Positions 17,222 to 30,000 of a stretch of 64,000 nt of DNA are shown here, in pieces. A program made the position numbers and the translations under genes. Origin of the DNA: Pedobacter sp. Hv1 (GTDB lineage: Bacteria; Bacteroidota; Bacteroidia; Sphingobacteriales; Sphingobacteriaceae); contig NZ_LLWP01000004.1 of the NCBI RefSeq assembly GCF_001412215.1, positions 310,001 to 374,000 on the forward strand, in the 5' to 3' direction. The notes beneath the pieces are model-generated. The model saw only the letters and a program-made list of their open reading frames with translations. It was not told where the DNA came from and did not search any database. Position 1 is the first letter of the stretch. Every line of letters starts with the position of its first letter.

Positions 17222-19636
17222 CTATTTTTTCCACTTTAACAAAAGACTATTGGTTACTACACTTACACTGCTCAAAGCCATGGCGGCACCAGCAATCATT
17301 GGGTTCAATAAAAAGCCATTTACAGGATATAAAATGCCTGCTGCAAGCGGAATACCAATGATATTGTAGATAAATGCCCAGAATAGATTTTGGCGAATGG
17401 TAGCTACCGTATTTTTTGAAAGCCTAATGGCTTCTGGAATTTTGGTCAGGTCTGAAGAAATAATGGTCATTTTTGCTACATCCATAGCAATATCGCTGCC
17501 TTTGCCCATGGCAATACTTACATCGGCCTGTGCCAATGCTGTACTGTCGTTAATTCCATCGCCAACCATGGCTACAATTTTTCCTTCACTTTGCAGTTGT
17601 TTGATAAAACTTGCTTTTTGATCAGGCATTACTTCTGCTTTATAAGCTGTAATTCCAGTTTGTTTGGCAATAGATTTGGCAGTAGTTTCATTGTCGCCTG
17701 TAAGCATATAGACTGCTATACCGTTATTAATTAACTGCTCAATAGCTTGTTTAGAAGTCTCTTTAATCTGATCAGCGATGGCCAATACAGCTAATGCATT
17801 TTCGTGATTTGCAAACCAGATTACAGTTTTAGCCTCATTACCCCATTGTGTTGCTTTAGTTAACAATTGCTCCTCAACTTTAATTTGATGTTCGGTAAGT
17901 AATTTGTAGTTGCCCACAAAATAGATTTGACCATCTATATCGGCTTTTGCACCTCTACCAGTTATACTTTCAAAGTGGTGAACTGTTTTTAAAGCTAGAT
18001 TTTCAAAATGTTTAACCACTGCTTCGGCTAAAGGATGTTCAGATAGTTTTTCAATACTAACTAAAGCCTGTTTGGCCAATTCATCTTGGTTTAACCAAAA
18101 ATCGTCTGTTACCACTGGTTTGCCTTCGGTAATGGTTCCTGTTTTGTCTAAAACCACTACATTTACTTTTTTGGCCAGTTCTAAACTTATCGCATCTTTA
18201 ATTAAAATGCCATGTTCGGCAGCTTTGCCAATGCCCACCATAATTGCGGTAGGAGTGGCTAAACCTAAAGCACAAGGACAAGCAATAACCAGTACGGTGG
18301 CTAAGGCAATTAAACCTTGAGAAAAACCATTCTGTCCGCCTAAAATGATCCAGGTTACAAAAGCAATCATTGCAATTACAATCACAACTGGAACAAATAT
18401 GCCTGCAATTTTATCAACCAGTTTTTGTACTGGCGCTTTACTGCCTTGTGCCTCTTGTACCATTCTAATGATTTGTGCCAGCATCGTTTCTGCGCCTACT
18501 TTTTCGGCACGGAACTGAAAACTTCCCTTTTGGTTAATGGTACCAGCAAAAACTGATTCGTTTTCTTTTTTTAATACAGGTACAGGTTCACCACTCAACA
18601 TACTCTCGTCTACATAAGAGTTGCCTTTTACCACTTGGCCATCCACAGCAATCTTTTCACCTGGTTTGACCAAAATGATATCGCCTTTGCTTACTTCTTC
18701 AATGGCAATTACTACTTGTTGATCATTCTCCTTAATAATAGTCACGGTTTTTGGTTGTAACCCCATCAGTTTTTTAATGGCCGAAGAGGTATTGCCTTTG
18801 GCTTTTTCTTCTAATAGTTTACCCAATAAAATAAAAGAGATGATTACAGCTGCTGCTTCAAAATAAACATGTCCATGTAAGCCTCTTTCCATCCAAAATG
18901 AAGGAAATAAGGTGTTGAAGACACTAAATAGATAAGCAATACCTGAACCTAAGGCTACCAAGGTATCCATATTTGCAGAGCGATGTTTGGTCTGCTTCCA
19001 GGCGTTGATAAAGAAGTCTTTACCAAACCAAAGCACTACTGGTGTTGAAAGTACCCACATGATCTCGTTGGCATAAGGCATATTCATGTAAAACATGCCA
19101 ATAATGACAACTGGTAGCGAAATTATGCTTGCCCATAAGGTTTTGCGTTTTAACTGGCCAAACTTTTGCGCATGAATTTCTTCTAGTGTTTCAGATTCCT
19201 TATCGGCATTAGCCAGCAATAGATCGTAGCCAATACTTTGTACGGCTTTTTGTATTTCTTCTGTACTGATCAGATTGGGCAAATATTCGACAGTTACGCT
19301 AGCCGTTGCGAAATTTACAGCAGCACTAATCACACCTGGCTGAGCTTTGATGATACTTTCCGTACTCACAGCACAAGAAGCGCAGGTCATGTCTAAAACT
19401 GGAATTGTTTTTTTTACACTCGTTACCCCGTAACCTAAATCGCGAATGGCATTTACTGCATTGGCAATGGTTGAATTGTCTTTTGTTGTAATTAACGCTC
19501 TATTGTTATTGAGTTCTACTTGATGAGAATCGACACCTTTTACTTTTGCCAGGCCTTTATCTACTATCAATGCACAATGCTCACTTTCTACACCTTCTAA
19601 TGGAATATAAATAGGTGATTTTTGATCTGTTGACAT
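17222..19636 (-). CDS. copA: Cu(I)-exporting P1B-type ATPase
   Basis: 804 residues, full length. It has two N-terminal HMA domains: the first is degenerate (GVESEHCALIV), the second intact (DMTCASCAVST). Eight TM segments carry the CPC ion site (VIACPCALGLATPT). P-type motifs are all present: TGE-like SGEPVPV, DKTGTITEG, SEHPLAEAVV, MLTGDN and GDGINDSTALA. The last TM pair has YN (FIYNIIGIPLAA) and MALSSVSVVTNS, the signature of the Cu(I) subgroup. It pumps Cu(I) from cytosol to periplasm, feeding the Cus system encoded on the other strand. An AAGTTCG direct repeat lies just upstream of the start. Confidence 0.96.
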   Translation of the reverse strand: MSTDQKSPIYIPLEGVESEHCALIVDKGLAKVKGVDSHQVELNNNRALITTKDNSTIANAVNAIRDLGYGVTSVKKTIPVLDMTCASCAVSTESIIKAQPGVISAAVNFATASVTVEYLPNLISTEEIQKAVQSIGYDLLLANADKESETLEEIHAQKFGQLKRKTLWASIISLPVVIIGMFYMNMPYANEIMWVLSTPVVLWFGKDFFINAWKQTKHRSANMDTLVALGSGIAYLFSVFNTLFPSFWMERGLHGHVYFEAAAVIISFILLGKLLEEKAKGNTSSAIKKLMGLQPKTVTIIKENDQQVVIAIEEVSKGDIILVKPGEKIAVDGQVVKGNSYVDESMLSGEPVPVLKKENESVFAGTINQKGSFQFRAEKVGAETMLAQIIRMVQEAQGSKAPVQKLVDKIAGIFVPVVIVIAMIAFVTWIILGGQNGFSQGLIALATVLVIACPCALGLATPTAIMVGIGKAAEHGILIKDAISLELAKKVNVVVLDKTGTITEGKPVVTDDFWLNQDELAKQALVSIEKLSEHPLAEAVVKHFENLALKTVHHFESITGRGAKADIDGQIYFVGNYKLLTEHQIKVEEQLLTKATQWGNEAKTVIWFANHENALAVLAIADQIKETSKQAIEQLINNGIAVYMLTGDNETTAKSIAKQTGITAYKAEVMPDQKASFIKQLQSEGKIVAMVGDGINDSTALAQADVSIAMGKGSDIAMDVAKMTIISSDLTKIPEAIRLSKNTVATIRQNLFWAFIYNIIGIPLAAGILYPVNGFLLNPMIAGAAMALSSVSVVTNSLLLKWKK

Positions 19637-19852: not shown

Positions 19853-20416
19853 TTATACTTGATCTAAAGACTTTCTTTTGTCTTCAGTGCTATTTTTAAA
19901 TTGACTAGGGGTGTAGCCAGTTATTTTTTTAAACTGATTGCTCAAATGACCAATGCTTGAATAGTTGAGCTGATAGGCAATTTCGCTGAGCGATAACTCT
20001 CCGTAAGCAATGAGTTCTTTTACCCTTTCAATTTTTTGGGCAATAAAATATTTTTCAATGGTGAGGTGCTCTATTTCCGAAAATAGATTGGAGATGTAGT
20101 TATAGTCGTGGTTAAGTTTTTCGCTTAAATAATCGGAAAGGTTTACTTTTAAGTTCACGTCTTGGTGGTGTACCAACTCGATGATGTGTTTTTTAATATT
20201 TTCGGTCAATCTTGTCTTTTTATCGTCAATCAGCTCAAAACCCAGCTCGTTCAAAGCTGTTCCAAGGTTTATTTTGGCTGTTGTTGTCATTTCTTCTTCA
20301 AGCGTAACTTCGCCTAAGGTTACAGCAATTGGGGCAATACCTAATTTTTCTAATTCTGTACGAACCACCAATTTGCAACGGTCACAAACCATGTTTTTGA
20401 TATAAATCTTTGTCAT
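19853..20416 (-). CDS. AraC-type regulator with N-terminal HMA-like metal-binding domain
   Basis: 187 residues from the ATG at 20416 (a GTG lies one codon upstream). Residues 1-65 read as an HMA fold: KIYIKNMVCDRCKLVVRTEL has the MxCxxC site. The fold ends in ALNELGFELI, as HMA domains end in '..GY/F'. Residues about 95-180 are a two-HTH AraC domain (GELSLSEIAYQLNYSSIGHL, then FKKITGYTPSQFK). The architecture suggests Cu(I) or a similar ion controls DNA binding directly. It lies between copA and the divergent cus arm, so it probably regulates the island. Confidence 0.85.
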   Translation of the reverse strand: MTKIYIKNMVCDRCKLVVRTELEKLGIAPIAVTLGEVTLEEEMTTTAKINLGTALNELGFELIDDKKTRLTENIKKHIIELVHHQDVNLKVNLSDYLSEKLNHDYNYISNLFSEIEHLTIEKYFIAQKIERVKELIAYGELSLSEIAYQLNYSSIGHLSNQFKKITGYTPSQFKNSTEDKRKSLDQV

Positions 20417-20430
20417 CACCTATAAATGGT

Positions 20431-21600: not shown

Positions 21601-21999
21601 ATGAAAAGAGCACTATTTACCTTTCTTGCAATTTTTTACCTGAGCGTTTCAAGTGGGGCAACTGTGCATTTTCATTATTGTATGGGCCAACTGGTAAAGT
21701 TGAGCTTAAATCAACCCCAAAAAGATAATTGTGGGGTATGCGGCATGTCTAAAAAGGAAGTTAAAAAACACTCCTGCTGCAAAGACGATTATAAACAGGC
21801 CAAAGTAGACACTAGCAAAAAAACAGCACAAACGGTTTATCAGTTCAATGCACCTGTTGTTGCAGTCGATCAGCAATATGGAGCTGTTACAGACCCAATT
21901 GTTTTGTCTAGTGAGACCAATAAAGCTGTATATGGTCATTCACCACCCGAAAGTGAGTGTGTACCCATCTTTATCCGTAACTGTACCTACAGAATATAG
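21601..21999 (+). CDS. HYC_CC_PP family exported protein
   Basis: 132 residues with a signal peptide. The three features that name this Bacteroidota family are present: HFHYCMGQ after the signal, Cys-rich centre (NCGVCGM, HSCCKDD), and a C-terminal PP (HSPPES). Its Cys, His and Met content fits periplasmic copper binding, and family members usually lie in copper or heavy-metal clusters. It opens the plus-strand arm, divergent from the VOC-GNAT-regulator run. Confidence 0.82.
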   Translation: MKRALFTFLAIFYLSVSSGATVHFHYCMGQLVKLSLNQPQKDNCGVCGMSKKEVKKHSCCKDDYKQAKVDTSKKTAQTVYQFNAPVVAVDQQYGAVTDPIVLSSETNKAVYGHSPPESECVPIFIRNCTYRI

Positions 22000-22098: not shown

Positions 22099-22461
22099 AT
22101 GAAATCATTACGATTCTCTTTGGTAGCCTTATTGGCTTTCCTTGGCAGTGCTGCATTTGCACAGTCTAAAACAGACAGTATCAAAGTTGCTGGCAACTGT
22201 GGCATGTGTAAAAAACGCATCGAAGCAGCTGTAAAAGCAGATGGTGTAACAAGTGCCGAGTGGAGCGCTAAAACCAAAATGCTCAGCATTAATTACGATG
22301 CGAGCAAAATTAAGTTAGACGACATTCAACGCAAAATTGCTGATGTTGGTTACGACACCCCAAAATTTAAAGCCACCGAAGCAGTTTACACCAAACTTCC
22401 AGGTTGCTGCAAATACGACAGGGAAGGTCAGCCTGCTCAAAAACCAGAAACACATCACTAA
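22099..22461 (+). CDS. periplasmic HMA-domain metallochaperone
   Basis: 120 residues: signal peptide (LLAFLGSAAFAQ), then an HMA fold with VAGNCGMCKKRIEAAV (CxxC) and the closing IADVGYDTPKF. A second Cys pair (PGCCKYD) and a His tail (PETHH) follow. Unlike most HMA chaperones it is exported, so it probably hands copper to the RND pump within the periplasm. It is 50 bp upstream of the split cusA genes, separated by a GC-rich hairpin. Confidence 0.88.
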   Translation: MKSLRFSLVALLAFLGSAAFAQSKTDSIKVAGNCGMCKKRIEAAVKADGVTSAEWSAKTKMLSINYDASKIKLDDIQRKIADVGYDTPKFKATEAVYTKLPGCCKYDREGQPAQKPETHH

Positions 22462-22511: not shown

Positions 22512-23810
22512 ATGGTACATAAAATTATAGAATGGTCAATGCGCAACCGGTTTATTGTGCTGATGCTTTCTGCCGGACTATTTGTATGGGGTATATTTTC
22601 CGTACAAAAGAACCCGATAGACGCAATTCCAGACCTTTCAGAAAACCAGGTGATCGTATTTACCGAATGGATGGGCAGATCGCCACAATTGATAGAAGAC
22701 CAGGTAACCTACCCTTTAGTGACCAATTTACAGGGGATACCTAAAATTAAATACGTAAGAGGCTCGTCAATGTTTGGCATGAGCTTTATCTATGTCATTT
22801 TTGAAGACGATGTAGATGTTTATTGGGCCAGAGAACGGGTAATGGAAAGGATCAGTACCATCTCTAAAACCCTGCCCGATGGCGTAGCACCACAATTAGG
22901 CCCTGACGGTACGGGTGTTGGACATGTACTTTGGTATACTTTAGATGCACCAGATATGGATCTGGGCGAACAGCGTGCCATACAAGATTGGTATGTGAAG
23001 TTTGCCCTGCAGAATGTACCTGGTGTAAGCGAGATTGCCTCTTTTGGTGGTTTCCAGAAACAATACCAGATCAATATCGATCCTAATAAACTGCTTTATT
23101 ATAAACTGAGCGTACCACAGGTAATTGCTGCCGTGAGGAGCAACAACAACGAATCTGGAGGCCGAAAGTTTGAAATGAGTAACATGGGGTATATCATTAA
23201 AACATCTGGTTACCTCAAATCTATAGCCGAGATTGCCAATATCCCTGTTAAAAATCAAAATGGTACACCAATTAAGGTTTCAGACTTGGCTACGGTACAG
23301 ATGACAGGAGAAACCCGACTCGGCATATTTGATCAAGATGGCAAAGGCGAACGTGCAGGTGGTATTGTAGTAATGCGCTATGGCGAAAATGCTGCTGAGG
23401 TAATTGACAAGGTAAAGGCCAAAATGAAGGAAGTATCAAAAGGACTACCCAAAGGTGTCAAATTTGATATTGTGTACGACAGGGGAGAACTGATCAAAGA
23501 ATCAGTAGACTCAATCAAACACACCTTAATTGAAGAGATGATCGTGGTTTCACTCATCGTATTTGTGTTCTTGTTCCATTGGCGCAGTGCCTTAAGTATC
23601 ATCATACAAATTCCAATTACCATAGCCGCCAGTTTTATCCTGCTCAATGCTTTTGATATTTCTTCAAATATCATGTCGTTAACGGGTATTGCCTTGGCCA
23701 TTGGTGTAATTGTAGACAATGGGATTATCATGAGTGAAAATGCATATAAACATCTCGCAGAACGCTACGAATTGTGGGAAAAAGATCAAAATAAAACAAC
23801 ATCATCATGA
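22512..23810 (+). CDS. cusA: CusA-type RND efflux pump, N-terminal half
   Basis: 432 residues covering TM1, the first periplasmic porter region and TM2-TM4 of a heavy-metal RND pump (full members are about 1040 residues). It starts with EWSMRNRFIVLMLSAG and has DAIPDLSENQVIV, typical of CusA/CzcA. TM4 contains the proton-relay Asp (AIGVIVDNGIIMSENAY). It ends soon after TM4, in the cytosolic loop, with a charged tail. The stop overlaps the start of the second half as ATGA. The two proteins together cover the whole family length, so this looks like a coupled split gene rather than a wreck. Confidence 0.93.
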   Translation: MVHKIIEWSMRNRFIVLMLSAGLFVWGIFSVQKNPIDAIPDLSENQVIVFTEWMGRSPQLIEDQVTYPLVTNLQGIPKIKYVRGSSMFGMSFIYVIFEDDVDVYWARERVMERISTISKTLPDGVAPQLGPDGTGVGHVLWYTLDAPDMDLGEQRAIQDWYVKFALQNVPGVSEIASFGGFQKQYQINIDPNKLLYYKLSVPQVIAAVRSNNNESGGRKFEMSNMGYIIKTSGYLKSIAEIANIPVKNQNGTPIKVSDLATVQMTGETRLGIFDQDGKGERAGGIVVMRYGENAAEVIDKVKAKMKEVSKGLPKGVKFDIVYDRGELIKESVDSIKHTLIEEMIVVSLIVFVFLFHWRSALSIIIQIPITIAASFILLNAFDISSNIMSLTGIALAIGVIVDNGIIMSENAYKHLAERYELWEKDQNKTTSS

Positions 23811-25744
23811 GAACATGGTTAAAAAATATATTTCGTAAATCTCCAGATTGGATCACTGAAGAAGATCGCTTGGAGGTGATTACCAAATCTAGTAAACAGG
23901 TGTCGAGGGGCGTATTCTTTGCCACAGTAATTATCATTACCTCTTTTTTACCTGTATTTATGCTCACAGGGCAAGAAGGTAAATTGTTCCATCCATTGGC
24001 TTATACCAAAACATTCATCATGATTGTGGATGCGCTATTGGTGATTACTTTGGCCCCGGTACTGATTTCCTTCTTTATGAAAGGAAAATTCAGGCCAGAC
24101 AATGCTAATCCAGTAAATAGAATATTAGAGAAGGTGTATGAACCCATTATCAGAACGGTACTAAAGTGGAGAAAAACGACTATCGCTATTAATATCATTG
24201 CTTTACTGATTACCATTCCCTTACTTAAAAATTTGGGTACAGAGTTCATTCCGCCATTAGACGAACAAAGCATTTTGTTTATGCCGGTAACTTTACCAGA
24301 TGTTTCTAATGCTGAAGCTAAACGGATATTACAGGTGCAAGATAAGATCATCAAGTCTGTACCAGAAGTTGATAAAGTATTAGGCAAAGCAGGTAGGGCC
24401 AATACTGCTACCGATAACTCGCCAATTAGTATGATCGAGACGATCATAACCCTAAAGCCAAAAAGCGAATGGCGTAAAGGCATTACCAAAAAGGATATTG
24501 TAACCGAATTAGATGCCAAATTGCAAATTCCAGGTGTGGTAAATGGGTGGACCCAACCGATCATCAACAGAATCAATATGTTGGCTACGGGTATCCGTAC
24601 CGATGTGGGGATTAAGGTATTCGGACAAAACCTCGATACGATTGCTTCTGTATCAGAAAAAGTAAAAGCAGCTTTAGCAGGTACAGCAGGGGTAAGCGAT
24701 CTATTTGTAGAACCCATTACTGGTGGTAAATACCTCTCTATTGATATTAAAAGAGAAGAATTGGCCCGTTATGGCCTCAATGTGGATGATGTAAACCAAG
24801 TGGTAGAGAGTGCCCTGGGTGGTGCAACCGTTGGCAATACGATAGAAGGTAGACAACGTTTTTCTATCAGTGTGCGTTTGGCCCAAGAATATAGAAATAG
24901 TGTAGAACGTATTCAGCGTATTCCAATCCAATCGACCACTTTTGGTGAGGTTCCATTGTCAGCAGTTGCTGAGGTGAAGTTTGAAGATGGTCCGCCAATG
25001 ATCAGTTCTGACAATGCCATTTTACGTGGTGCCGTAATGTTCAATGTACGTGACAGAGATTTGGGTAGCACAGTTCAAGAAGCGATGGAGAAATTGAATA
25101 AAGAAAAAGGAATACTTCCAGAAGGTTATTTCTTAGAATGGAGTGGCCAGTACGAAAACCTGATCAGAGGTAAACAAACCTTAATGTGGATTGCTCCCGT
25201 GGTATTGCTGATCATCTTCTTCTCTTTATATTTTGCATTTCGTTCTATCAGAGAGGCTTTTTTAAGTCTCATTACGGTGCCTTTCGCTTTAATTGGTGGA
25301 GCTTATATGATCTATTTCTGGGGCGTAAACCTATCTGTTGGTGTAGCAGTTGGTTTCATTGCGCTGTTTGGTATCGCCGTAGAAACGGGAATTGTAATGG
25401 TCATCTATTTGAACGATGCCATGCAACAACTCATCAAACTGAAAGGAAATTCAAGCGAAACAATTACAAAAGAAGACTTGAGAATTTATGTAATTAATGG
25501 GGCTGCGAAAAGATTAAGACCAAAACTGATGACTGTTTGTGTGTCGTTGTTTGGCCTAGTGCCTGTATTGTGGGCTACTGGTGTAGGTGTAGATGTAATG
25601 CAGCCAATTGTGCTGCCCATGATAGGTGGGGTATTGACCTCTTCAACACACATTCTACTGGTTACACCACTGATCTTTTTAATGTCTAAAGAATACGAAT
25701 TGAGGAAATATGGAAAATTGGAGGTGCACGATGTACATCATTAA
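23807..25744 (+). CDS. cusA: CusA-type RND efflux pump, C-terminal half
   Basis: 645 residues beginning in the loop before TM5 (RGVFFATVIIITSFLPVFML, then GQEGKLFHPLAYTKT) and running through the second porter region to TM12. The relay residues in this half are present: Glu in TM10 (FGIAVETGIVMVIYL) and Lys in KRLRPKLMTV. MFP-docking and porter segments such as GIRTDVGIKVFGQNL are normal. It needs the preceding protein to make a complete pump. The ATGA overlap would favour equal synthesis. The next gene (TolC-like) starts inside its last codons. Confidence 0.93.
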   Translation: MRTWLKNIFRKSPDWITEEDRLEVITKSSKQVSRGVFFATVIIITSFLPVFMLTGQEGKLFHPLAYTKTFIMIVDALLVITLAPVLISFFMKGKFRPDNANPVNRILEKVYEPIIRTVLKWRKTTIAINIIALLITIPLLKNLGTEFIPPLDEQSILFMPVTLPDVSNAEAKRILQVQDKIIKSVPEVDKVLGKAGRANTATDNSPISMIETIITLKPKSEWRKGITKKDIVTELDAKLQIPGVVNGWTQPIINRINMLATGIRTDVGIKVFGQNLDTIASVSEKVKAALAGTAGVSDLFVEPITGGKYLSIDIKREELARYGLNVDDVNQVVESALGGATVGNTIEGRQRFSISVRLAQEYRNSVERIQRIPIQSTTFGEVPLSAVAEVKFEDGPPMISSDNAILRGAVMFNVRDRDLGSTVQEAMEKLNKEKGILPEGYFLEWSGQYENLIRGKQTLMWIAPVVLLIIFFSLYFAFRSIREAFLSLITVPFALIGGAYMIYFWGVNLSVGVAVGFIALFGIAVETGIVMVIYLNDAMQQLIKLKGNSSETITKEDLRIYVINGAAKRLRPKLMTVCVSLFGLVPVLWATGVGVDVMQPIVLPMIGGVLTSSTHILLVTPLIFLMSKEYELRKYGKLEVHDVHH

Positions 25745-26981
25745 AAGAATAGTAATTATGCTGTTGTTACTGCCTTTTTATGGGTTAGCACAACAAAGTC
25801 CAGTGCTATCGCTGGATACCATCCTAAACAGGATAGATAAAAACAACCTTTTGTTACAATCTTATGGTTTAAAAGCCGAAAGCTATAAACACAGTGCAAA
25901 AGCGGCAACTGCCTGGATGGCACCCATGGTTGGTGTGGGTACGTTTATGACACCTTATCCAGGTCAACAACTCATGGACGATAGAGACAAAGGTTCTTTA
26001 ATGTTACAACTGGAACAGGATATTCCCAATCCGGTAAAATTAAAGGCCAATAAACGGTACATCGAATCGAAAGCTAAGGTAGAGAACGAAACCAGAGGGA
26101 TTACGTTAAACGAATACAGAGCCCAGGCTAAACGTTTATATTTTGGTTGGTTGGTTGCTGCACAGAAAATTAATGTGTTGCAACAAAACGAGAAGATTAT
26201 GCAGACCATGAAAAAGATTGAAGAGATCAGGTATCCCTACAATCAATCCAAACTGGGTAGTGTTTACAAAACAGCGGCCAAACTGGAAGAGAACAATAAT
26301 ATGATCAGGATGCAGGAAGGTGATATTGCCAAAGCAAGGGCTTGGTTAAATAGTTTGATGAATAGCAGTGGAAATGCCATTTTCGCTATCGACACTAACT
26401 ACAAGCCTCTTTTTGTGCCTGCTGCCAAGATTGATACGGCTAGTTTGGCTTTGGCTAGAAATGATATCAAAAAGATGGACTATAACATCCAGTCTATGCA
26501 ATTGAATATCGAGGCCATGAAAAAACAGAGCCGACCAGATTTTAGATTGAGGTTCGACCACATGTCGCCACTGACCAAAATGATGCCTAAAGCATTTAGT
26601 ATAATGGGTATGGTTAGTATTCCAATTGCGCCTTGGTCTGCAAAGATGTACAAATCAGAAGCCAAAGGTATGGCTTACGAAATTGAGGCCATGAGCAAAG
26701 AAAAAGCGGCCATGTTGCAAGAAACACAAGGCATGCTCTATGGAATGCAATTTGAAATTCAATCGATGCAAAAACGCATTGATGCCTTAGAGCATAAGAT
26801 TATTCCGAGTTTACAAAAAACATTGGACGTAAACTTCTTGAGCTACCGAGAGAACAAAATGGAATTGCCACAGGTCATCGATTCGTGGGAAGCACTGACC
26901 ATGATGCAGACCAATGTATTGGATGAGAAACTGAAACTTTATTTAATGATTGCTGATTATGAGAAAGAATTATATCGTTAG
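25731..26981 (+). CDS. TolC-family outer-membrane factor (CusC-like)
   Basis: 416 residues from ATG 25731, chosen because GGAGG lies 7 nt upstream and a signal peptide follows (VIMLLLLPFYGLA); an in-frame ATG at 25710 is longer. The body is long amphipathic helices with coiled-coil spacing, the TolC pattern, including LEQDIPNPVKLKANKRYIE. Central residues are rich in Met (MSPLTKMMPKAFSIMGM), consistent with Cu(I) handling. It would form the outer-membrane exit duct. It overlaps the pump gene before it and the adaptor gene after it. Confidence 0.88.
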   Translation: MYIIKRIVIMLLLLPFYGLAQQSPVLSLDTILNRIDKNNLLLQSYGLKAESYKHSAKAATAWMAPMVGVGTFMTPYPGQQLMDDRDKGSLMLQLEQDIPNPVKLKANKRYIESKAKVENETRGITLNEYRAQAKRLYFGWLVAAQKINVLQQNEKIMQTMKKIEEIRYPYNQSKLGSVYKTAAKLEENNNMIRMQEGDIAKARAWLNSLMNSSGNAIFAIDTNYKPLFVPAAKIDTASLALARNDIKKMDYNIQSMQLNIEAMKKQSRPDFRLRFDHMSPLTKMMPKAFSIMGMVSIPIAPWSAKMYKSEAKGMAYEIEAMSKEKAAMLQETQGMLYGMQFEIQSMQKRIDALEHKIIPSLQKTLDVNFLSYRENKMELPQVIDSWEALTMMQTNVLDEKLKLYLMIADYEKELYR

Positions 26982-28182
26982 GCCATTGGTCTATTTCCTT
27001 GCTGCAATCGTATTGGTAATCAGTTCTTGCAAAGGAAATAAAGAAAATAAACATACTACACATAATGACCCTGGTGCGTTGACCATAGATAGTAACTTGT
27101 CTCATTTGTTACAGCCATCAAATGAGCAAGTTGTATCTACCTTGCCAGTAATCAAGGCAGAATATGGTACACGGATATTTACCGAAGAAGCTCAAGGGAT
27201 CATCAATTATGATACCCGTAACCAAAACAGTGTAGCCAGTAGGGTAAGTGGTAGAATAGAACGTTTGCTGATCAAATACAACTATCAACCGGTTAGTAAA
27301 GGACAATTGATTATGCAAATCTATTCTCCAGACCTGGCAGCTGCACAACAAGAACTCTTGTTTCTTAAACGGACAGAAACAGATCAAACCTTAATAGATA
27401 GAGCAAAACAAAGGTTAATGTTATTAGGAATGAATGCTGCAGGAATTAATCAAGTACTAAAAACCGGAAAAGTAAATTATCTTATTCCAGTTTATAGCAA
27501 TGCTGATGGTTATATCTTAGAAAAGTCTGCCGCACCTGTTTCGGTTGCAGCACCTGCTGCAACTACAGCAAGCGGTGGCGATGGGATGAGCGGAATGGGT
27601 GGTGGAAGTACAGCTGCTGCTACACCTAGCAGTAGCGCAACACCTGCAAATTCTCCTGTATTGTTGCGAGAAGGACAATATGTTACTGCTGGCCAATCGC
27701 TCTTTACCATCTACAATGGCAACAACTTAATCGCAGAATTTGCTTTTAAACCTGCATTAGCTGCATTAGTTAATAAGGGAGATCAATTTGCTTTTTATAA
27801 AACAGCAGATAAAAGCACCATTAAAAGTGCGACCATTGGTTTAATTCAACCCATTTTTAAAAATGGAGAGAACTTCACCATTGCCAGAACTTACCTCAAC
27901 CAATCCAATTTTAGAGTTGGTGAACTACTAACAGCCAGAATTCCAGTATTGTTAACTGCTTCTTGGTGGCTTCCAGAAACGGCAGTGCTTTCTATCGGTA
28001 ACCAAACCATCATCTTTAAAAAAGAAGGCAATGTAGTGGTACCTAAAACCATAGATGCAGGAATTACCATTGCGGGCATGGTACAAGTTAAAACAGACAT
28101 TAGTAATTGGGAAGTGAGTAAAAACGCAGCGTATTTGATAGATAGTGAAAGTTTTATCAAAGAGCAGCCGACAAAAAAATAG
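26959..28182 (+). CDS. RND membrane-fusion adaptor (CusB-like), first copy
   Basis: 407 residues from ATG 26959, overlapping the TolC-like gene by 23 bp (a TTG lies three codons upstream). Lipoprotein signal (VLVISSC, then KGN). It has the lipoyl half-motif SRVSGRIERLLIKYNYQPVS and hairpin helices (SPDLAAAQQELLFLKR). The second lipoyl half is entered through a Gly/Ser/Ala/Met-rich insert of about 40 residues with MSGMGGG. Periplasmic adaptors link pump and duct. This copy has no separate metal-binding N-terminal domain. Confidence 0.87.
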   Translation: MRKNYIVRPLVYFLAAIVLVISSCKGNKENKHTTHNDPGALTIDSNLSHLLQPSNEQVVSTLPVIKAEYGTRIFTEEAQGIINYDTRNQNSVASRVSGRIERLLIKYNYQPVSKGQLIMQIYSPDLAAAQQELLFLKRTETDQTLIDRAKQRLMLLGMNAAGINQVLKTGKVNYLIPVYSNADGYILEKSAAPVSVAAPAATTASGGDGMSGMGGGSTAAATPSSSATPANSPVLLREGQYVTAGQSLFTIYNGNNLIAEFAFKPALAALVNKGDQFAFYKTADKSTIKSATIGLIQPIFKNGENFTIARTYLNQSNFRVGELLTARIPVLLTASWWLPETAVLSIGNQTIIFKKEGNVVVPKTIDAGITIAGMVQVKTDISNWEVSKNAAYLIDSESFIKEQPTKK

Positions 28183-28186
28183 AATT

Positions 28187-29413
28187 ATGGAACGTAAATC
28201 ATTCATCAAAAAATTTGCCTTAATGGCTGTGCTTCCATCGGTGTTTATTGCTGCCTGCAGTGAAGAGAAAAAACCAGAAGCCGCAGCAGCAAATAAAAAA
28301 CTACAAACTTTTACCTGTCCAATGCACCCACAGGTAATTAAAAATGAAATGAGTACCTGTCCAATTTGTGGGATGGACTTGGTGCCTTTTGAAAAAAACA
28401 GCAACGAGAAAGCGCTTAAAATAGACGAGAAACGTCAGGCTTTGGCTAACATCACCACCATGGTTATTGGTGTGAATAGTCTTACTGGTTTTAAACAATT
28501 GAATGGTCGTTTAACGATTAACCCAGAGCAAAGCAATTATATCTCTAGTCGTATTGCTGGTAGAGTAGAACAATTGTATATCAGAGAAACAGGTGTAAAA
28601 GTAAACAAAGGACAAGCCTTATATCAATTGTATTCAGAACAATTGGCTACACTTCAACAAGAATACATGATGGCAATAGCACAAGAAAAACAGTTTAGAG
28701 GAGATCAAATAGAGCGTCAGATTGTAGCTTCGGCCAAACAGAAACTCTTGTTGTATGGCCAATCAGAAAATCAGGTGCAACAATTGGCAAAAACACAACA
28801 AAAAGATCCTTATGTTACATTTTATGCGCCAACAAGCGGTGTGGTTGCCGAATTATCCATTACACAAGGTCAATATGTGGCAGAGGGAAGTCCGATATTA
28901 CGATTAGAGGGTTATGGTCAATTGTGGGTAGAAGCCGATGTTTATCCAAGTGAAGCCAAACAGGTTAAACAAGGACAAAAGGTTAAAGTAATTATTGCCG
29001 GTTGGGAAGATCAACCACAGGAAATGACCATTGATTTTATCACACCTGCACTACAGGCTGGCACACAACTTACGCAGATCAGGGGAAGTATCCCAAATCT
29101 AAAAAACCAATGGCAACCCGGTTTACAGACTAATGTATTTCTTCCTTCCGGAAACCAAGGTAATGCACTAACCTTACCTGTAGATGCTGTAATTAGAGAT
29201 GGTAAAGGGATGCACGTATGGATTAAAAGTGGAAAAGACAACTTTGAACCTCGATTGGTAAAAACTGGAACAGAAAACGATCAGCAAGTAGAAATAGCCG
29301 AAGGTCTGCAAAATGGCGATCAAGTTGTAGTAACTGGCGCATACCTCTTATATAGTGAATATATCCTTAAAAAAGGTAAAAACCCTGTTGAAGGACTTAA
29401 ACTCAAATCTTAA
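28187..29413 (+). CDS. RND membrane-fusion adaptor (CusB-like) with metal-binding domain
   Basis: 408 residues from ATG 28187, 4 bp after the previous stop. Lipoprotein signal (VFIAAC, then SEEKK). A heavy-metal-binding domain follows (FTCPMHPQVIKNEMSTCPIC and GMDLVP). The adaptor core contains SRIAGRVEQLYIRETGVKV, helices with LYSEQLATLQQEYMMA, and YAPTSGVVAELSITQGQYV. This is the classic CusB layout for Bacteroidota. Having it directly behind another adaptor gene suggests a mixed trimer-of-dimers adaptor ring. Confidence 0.9.
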   Translation: MERKSFIKKFALMAVLPSVFIAACSEEKKPEAAAANKKLQTFTCPMHPQVIKNEMSTCPICGMDLVPFEKNSNEKALKIDEKRQALANITTMVIGVNSLTGFKQLNGRLTINPEQSNYISSRIAGRVEQLYIRETGVKVNKGQALYQLYSEQLATLQQEYMMAIAQEKQFRGDQIERQIVASAKQKLLLYGQSENQVQQLAKTQQKDPYVTFYAPTSGVVAELSITQGQYVAEGSPILRLEGYGQLWVEADVYPSEAKQVKQGQKVKVIIAGWEDQPQEMTIDFITPALQAGTQLTQIRGSIPNLKNQWQPGLQTNVFLPSGNQGNALTLPVDAVIRDGKGMHVWIKSGKDNFEPRLVKTGTENDQQVEIAEGLQNGDQVVVTGAYLLYSEYILKKGKNPVEGLKLKS

Positions 29414-29436: not shown

Positions 29437-30000
29437 ATGAATACAATCACCAATTTTACCATCGCTTTTGCAGCAGTGGCCTTATTTGCAGCCTGTGGAA
29501 ACACTCAGAAACCTACTGAAGCTAATGAGCATGCAGGTCATAACCATGCAGAAGGCGAAGGACATGGAGCTCCAGTAGCACAAACTGCTGTAGGGGTAAG
29601 TTTAAAAGATGATCAATTAAATGCTGTTTACCCACACTATACCCATTTAACCACTGCGTTGGTTAATGGCGATTTGGCTGAGGCTAAAGTTGCAGCCAAC
29701 GCCATTGAACTTGGTGCCAAAGCTCTCGCTAATGGAAGTGCATTAGCGAGTCTTGCTGCTAAAATAGGAGCGGGAACAGACATAGAAGTACAAAGAGCTT
29801 TATATGCTGATTTAAGTACTGATTTTATTGCAAGGGTAAAAAGCAGTGGCTTAAAGTCTGGAGAAATCTATGTTGAATATTGTCCAATGGCCTTGAATGA
29901 CAAAGGAGCTTCTTGGTTAAGTAACCAGAAAGACATCAAAAACCCTTATTACGGCGAAAGCATGTTGACTTGCGGTGAAGTAAAGGAAACACTAAAATAA
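29437..30000 (+). CDS. DUF3347-type copper-binding lipoprotein
   Basis: 187 residues: lipoprotein signal (VALFAAC, then GNTQK), a His-rich linker (EHAGHNHAEGEGHG), and a DUF3347 domain. The domain's closing signature is clear: YVEYCPMALNDKGASWLS, then NPYYGESMLTCG. Cys and Met in CPM and MLTCG are likely copper ligands. The domain often follows CusB in Bacteroidota, either fused or next to it. It closes the cus operon and probably binds periplasmic Cu. Confidence 0.9.
   Translation: MNTITNFTIAFAAVALFAACGNTQKPTEANEHAGHNHAEGEGHGAPVAQTAVGVSLKDDQLNAVYPHYTHLTTALVNGDLAEAKVAANAIELGAKALANGSALASLAAKIGAGTDIEVQRALYADLSTDFIARVKSSGLKSGEIYVEYCPMALNDKGASWLSNQKDIKNPYYGESMLTCGEVKETLK

Follow-up and report, generated by a model that had tools for sequence, protein, structure and literature searches.

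A putative two-chain CusA-type RND permease encoded by split genes in Pedobacter sp. Hv1 and other Bacteroidota

Pumps of the RND superfamily are usually viewed as indivisible single chains, with the proton relay and the substrate cleft in one polypeptide. SecD and SecF, also of this superfamily, are two chains that give a unit of 12 transmembrane (TM) segments; they divide at the boundary of the 6+6 pseudo-repeat and are fused in some species. TriABC of Pseudomonas is an RND pump with two different adaptors, and its permease is a complete single chain of ~1000 residues. MdtABC of E. coli has two different permease chains, but MdtB and MdtC are paralogues of ~1000 residues each, not halves. 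The nearest described case is MmpL13a/MmpL13b of Mycobacterium tuberculosis, an RND protein encoded by two adjacent ORFs and broken after four TM segments (PMC6463170). That split is recent: M. bovis and M. canettii have the gene intact, M. leprae has it as a pseudogene, and the break is seen as decay under way (PMC6463170).

We found a CusA-type permease of Pedobacter sp. Hv1 that, like MmpL13a/b, is broken after four TM segments. The window (the whole stretch of DNA that was analyzed) is 64,000 nucleotides long. The original prediction, made from the letters of the window, described ORFs of 432 and 645 amino acids joined by ATGA, and these are present:

22512..23810, + strand: cusA-N, first permease chain, 432 aa (TIGR00914 positions 1-427, E = 2e-137; PF00873; phmmer match to CusA)
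23807..25744, + strand: cusA-C, second permease chain, 645 aa (TIGR00914 positions 430-1035, E = 5.5e-186; PDB match to CusA 437-1043; residue conservation)
23807..23810, + strand: ATGA overlap, with the start of cusA-C inside the stop of cusA-N (sequence)

Together the two ORFs account for one permease. They cover positions 1-427 and 430-1035 of the 1051 positions of TIGR00914 with no overlap and no loss, and in an alignment to E. coli CusA only ~10 loop residues between them are without a match. By homology to CusA, cusA-N contains TM1, the first periplasmic loop, TM2-TM4 and a new C-terminal tail of ~20 residues, and cusA-C contains a short head, TM5-TM12 and the second periplasmic loop. 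The break lies in the TM4-TM5 cytosolic loop, as predicted. The claim that the halves sum to the family length held for the profile, which is covered nearly end to end, but not strictly for the residue count: the sum of 1077 aa is ~20-30 above that of a single chain, because both new ends have short extra tails. Scored singly, the halves reach 459 and 620 bits, below the whole-protein cut-off of 701, as expected for parts. Jointly they have the homology over the whole of TIGR00914 and PF00873 that marks CusA-CzcA proteins. The usual single chain of ~1040 residues, which is not definitional for HME-RND permeases, is interrupted here by a stop and a start. We classify the locus as a split variant of the HME-RND/CusA-CzcA permeases and not as a typical member.

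The residues expected of a Cu(I)/Ag(I) pump are kept and are divided between the chains. Aligned to CusA (PDB 3k07/3ne5), D405 corresponds to cusA-N D402, E939 to cusA-C E526 and K984 to cusA-C K573, so the TM4 Asp, the TM10 Glu and the Lys of the RPK motif are all present, as had been noted. The methionine triad of the CusA subtype, M573/M623/M672, corresponds to cusA-C M159/M209/M258, and E625 of the metal site to cusA-C E211. cusA-N also has M388 and M407; cusA-C has K68, E526 and K573 on the proton path and also M598. Likeness to CusA extends to K482, to the methionine relay positions M391, M410, M486 and M1009, and to the TolC and CusB-type partners in the operon. Unlike CusA, which is one chain of ~1047 aa, the window protein is encoded as chains of 432 and 645 aa. 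It also differs in having Ile at the positions of M403 and M501, two adaptor genes, and the permease genes first in the operon.

The proton relay is thus shared, with D405 (TM4) on the N chain and E939, K984 and K482 on the C chain; the metal-binding M573/M623/M672/E625 are all on the C chain. Point mutation of D405, E939 or K984 abolishes transport by CusA (PMC8092243), and the relay is therefore expected to require both chains. With catalytic residues spread over the two, neither half is expected to pump alone, and homology to CusA suggests that an active pump needs both within one protomer. By the same TM numbering the break gives 4 + 8 segments and ignores the 6 + 6 repeat. In this it differs from SecD/SecF, as the cut lies inside the first repeat; it differs from TriABC and MdtABC in that the permease is made as two halves and not as complete chains.

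We found that the split is not peculiar to the window. The Pedobacter sp. Hv1 genome (4.9 Mb) has a second complete operon with an identical break (contig C8). A search of related genomes for the same break point found it, with both halves in order, in 173 distinct loci, down to ~53% identity. Loci were gathered by searching at the level of genus, family, class and phylum and from named genomes; the genome samples were subsets, and the counts are lower bounds. Split loci occur in Pedobacter, Chitinophaga, Dyadobacter, Olivibacter, Flavobacterium, Hymenobacter, Telluribacter, Flavihumibacter and other Bacteroidota, with close relatives on plasmids of Spirosoma, Runella, Hymenobacter, Adhaeribacter and Haliscomenobacter. 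For the plasmids of Runella, Hymenobacter DG01 and Haliscomenobacter, the gene tables give two neighboring genes, each called 'efflux RND transporter permease subunit'. On one plasmid, that of Hymenobacter radiodurans (L229), the second half seems further broken or mis-assembled, with an annotated start ~900 nt late and no usable start found; the first adaptor there is annotated in two pieces.

A frameshift from sequencing or assembly, or a recently broken pseudogene, would be expected to leave two adjacent ORFs with a one-base shift and halves that sum to about full length, much as seen in the window. However, the break recurs at the same point in the 173 loci, in the second copy of the Pedobacter sp. 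Hv1 genome and on finished plasmids whose annotation lists two genes. Both halves are constrained (see below), and the new termini are recognizably conserved among Pedobacter and Chitinophaga. The probability of this explanation is negligible. Neither chance nor a single-base error, the latter named at the outset as an outcome that would refute the prediction, is the cause, and we rejected sequencing error and pseudogene alike on the conservation data.

We found no description of a conserved split HME-RND/CusA permease in Bacteroidetes in the open literature searched, outside of which most subscription journals lie. A copper-gene survey of Bizionia argentinensis (Bacteroidota) names CusA-like 'RND transporter subunits', and its passages on these make no mention of a split (PMC11213822).

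The junction between the halves is variable. Exact ATGA is found at 32% of junctions (55/173); at the others the two genes share 8-23 nt, meet end to end or are spaced. The second ORF begins between -23 and +15 nt from the first stop in 155/173 loci. In 17/173 the halves are 19-952 nt apart, and twice a whole gene lies between them: a complete class I SAM methyltransferase gene in Chitinophaga japonensis (L149, 5247-5978) and a complete, different class I SAM methyltransferase gene in genome G563 (L083/L286; L083 3467-4162, - strand). The two halves are separable as genes. Methyltransferases are also found near the operon on the Runella and Hymenobacter radiodurans plasmids. In some Pedobacter-like genomes the gaps (L032, L052, L031, L142, L146) hold repeated palindromes of the type GACGCACAATTGTGCGTC and minisatellite-like repeats.

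The original prediction was of a two-polypeptide pump with translational coupling setting 1:1 synthesis. Its first part is strongly supported by the single origin, the wide retention, the constraint on both halves and the divided catalytic residues, but 1:1 coupling is not established, given the variable junction. Junctions within -30..+15 nt make up 90% of those between permease halves, compared to 96%, 94% and 84% of the other junctions in the same operons. Because these are equally tight, ATGA coupling is weakened as a special feature of the permease. Coupling may help balance the two chains, though it is neither specific to them nor essential. Bacteroidota mostly do without Shine-Dalgarno-like sites, and the AGGAG/GGAGG sequences just ahead of the second ORF in many of L061-L067, L069, L073, L075, L077, L121-L124, L219 and L222 are therefore unusual.

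The junctions also bear on whether programmed ribosomal frameshifting at the overlap yields a full-length chain. In the window, the ATGA overlap puts cusA-C in the -1 frame, as is the case at some frameshift signals. Across the loci, however, all three frames occur: 98 and 67 loci have the second ORF in one or the other of the shifted frames, and 8 have it in frame behind the stop. The gap runs from -23 to +952 nt and in places holds a whole gene; a single signal cannot serve all of these. The varied frame and spacing therefore rule out programmed frameshifting as a general mechanism, and we consider it highly unlikely.

Our results are most consistent with one ancient fission followed by at least three later fusions. 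In trees computed without the junction columns and with a fused outgroup, all split copies fall together with strong support, and next to them are single-chain relatives of ~1045-1110 aa. Nested within the split group are fused copies: L106 (1050 aa), L282/L283 with the partial L285, and L284. The closest relatives of L106 are split and 84% identical, as are those of L284. The split/fused character changes four times on the tree, each change forced by well-supported branches. Forcing the split sequences apart from the nested fused ones was worse by 833 log-likelihood units (p-AU 1e-6). The re-fused loops are unlike each other in sequence. The operon order of the nested fused copies matches that of the split ones, and the fused copies therefore most likely descend from split copies. 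One fission and three fusions is the simplest history for these sequences.

Both halves are under strong purifying selection. Measured against the window gene, dN/dS was ~0.02 in each half; these values are rough because synonymous sites are near saturation. The paralogous halves within the genome are 96% and 95% identical in protein, with near-saturated synonymous sites. Across loci, identities of the N and C halves correlate at 0.97. D405 was kept in 157/157 copies examined, as were the methionine triad and E625 (157/157), and among scorable copies E939 was found in 152/154 and K984 in 150/154. The proton relay is thus near-invariant among relatives. A decaying split of the MmpL13a/b type would show a recent break, intact sister genes and relaxed constraint; the CusA split is instead ancient, of single origin, common to many genera and constrained.

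These data make it extremely unlikely that a single half does the work (the C chain, say, which has the metal site) and that the other is vestigial or does something else. All three triad methionines are indeed in the C chain, and some divergent copies lack relay residues. In contrast, D405 and its surroundings are invariant in the 157 first halves, dN/dS is equally low in the first half, and the N/C correlation is at the value given above. Decay of either half among relatives, which was to count against a stable two-chain pump, was not observed, with one caveat. The divergent split copies L109, L207, L208 (at 4120) and L042 have RPL or RPV where RPK is expected, and one is also without E939; their metal-site methionines are retained despite the change of K984 to Leu or Val. 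These copies may be differently energized or decaying, and not every split copy need therefore be an active proton-driven pump.

The genes around the permease are those of a copper operon:

17222..19636, - strand: copper-type P-type ATPase with HMA domains (PF00122, PF00702, PF00403)
19853..20419, - strand: AraC-type regulator, HMA-like N-terminus (KNMVCDRC) (PF12833; homologues beside L106 and the second operon)
21601..21999, + strand: small Cys/His-rich protein, first gene of the cluster, no Pfam match (ORFs compared by eye; look-alikes in the second operon and at L106)
22099..22461, + strand: HMA-domain protein, signal-like N-terminus, just upstream of cusA-N (PF00403; also in the second operon)
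25710..26981, + strand: TolC/CusC-like outer-membrane channel (PF02321)
26950..28182, + strand: first CusB/HlyD-type periplasmic adaptor (PF16576, PF16572)
28145..29413, + strand: second CusB/HlyD-type periplasmic adaptor, N-terminal heavy-metal-binding domain (PF16576, PF19335)
29437..30000, + strand: DUF3347 protein, regular member of these copper operons (PF11827; homologues in the second operon and Runella)

The partners of an HME-RND permease, a CusC/TolC-type channel and CusB-type adaptors, lie directly downstream. The AraC-type regulator is probably copper-responsive. The methionine triad, the neighboring copper-type ATPase, the HMA and DUF3347 proteins and the HMA-AraC regulator all point to Cu(I)/Ag(I) as the likely substrate.

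Gene order sets the split operons apart. The order An-Ac-TolC-B-B was found in 93/96 split loci with enough flank and A-TolC-B-B in four of four re-fused loci, compared to TolC-B-A in 18/20 unsplit outgroup loci. Nearly all split operons have two adaptors after TolC; unsplit relatives usually have one. This association could mean that the split is adaptive, with a two-chain protomer co-evolved with two adaptors into a hetero-adaptor pump or for regulated disassembly. However, a single branch gives rise to both the split and the two-adaptor operon, which makes their association one event. Both adaptors are retained in the four re-fused loci and therefore do not need a split permease, and re-fusion on at least three occasions suggests that selection for the split is weak. 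We regard adaptation of this kind as quite improbable. A broader proposal is unlikely: across the clade, the protomer of this Cu(I)/Ag(I) pump would be an obligate heterodimer cut in the first TM repeat, its two adaptors would be non-equivalent and arranged in a fixed hetero-ring, and assembly and disassembly would be regulated. Such a pump would consist of four kinds of chain plus TolC.

The two ORFs very probably represent one functional Cu(I)/Ag(I) RND permease made of two non-covalent chains, derived from a single fission and re-fused at least three times. cusA-N would contribute TM1-TM4 and the first periplasmic loop, and cusA-C TM5-TM12 and the second loop. The chains would associate non-covalently into a CusA-like protomer, and three protomers (three N and three C chains) would form a trimer that docks to the two kinds of adaptor and TolC. 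Transport by this assembly is predicted from sequence. The gene broke once, in the permissive TM4-TM5 cytosolic loop, in an ancestor of a large Bacteroidota clade; the split has since been kept through descent and plasmid carriage and undone by re-fusion at least three times. Most likely it persists as a near-neutral, easily tolerated arrangement; it may also have an adaptive role. Modeled singly with AlphaFold, the halves gave poor structures (pLDDT 64.7 and 48.0, from shallow alignments). In a Foldseek search with the low-confidence N-half model CusA ranked first, but with a TM-score <0.5 and 12 Å rmsd.

CusA has thus been cut at an unexpected place, and both pieces have been kept over long bacterial evolution and re-joined several times, which identifies the TM4-TM5 loop as a place where a cut is tolerated. 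The half-protomers are separately taggable, a natural experiment in RND pump assembly, and natural fused/split pairs ~84% identical are available for testing assembly and coupling. The split also explains the 'permease subunits' of ~430 and ~645 aa in annotations of Bacteroidota copper operons, which are open to being mistaken for fragments. Pedobacter sp. Hv1 also encodes RND permeases of 1451-1491 aa (L004 229-4698, L006 274-4746 and L007 265-4617, all - strand) that have a TolC-type outer-membrane (OEP) domain fused at the C-terminus.
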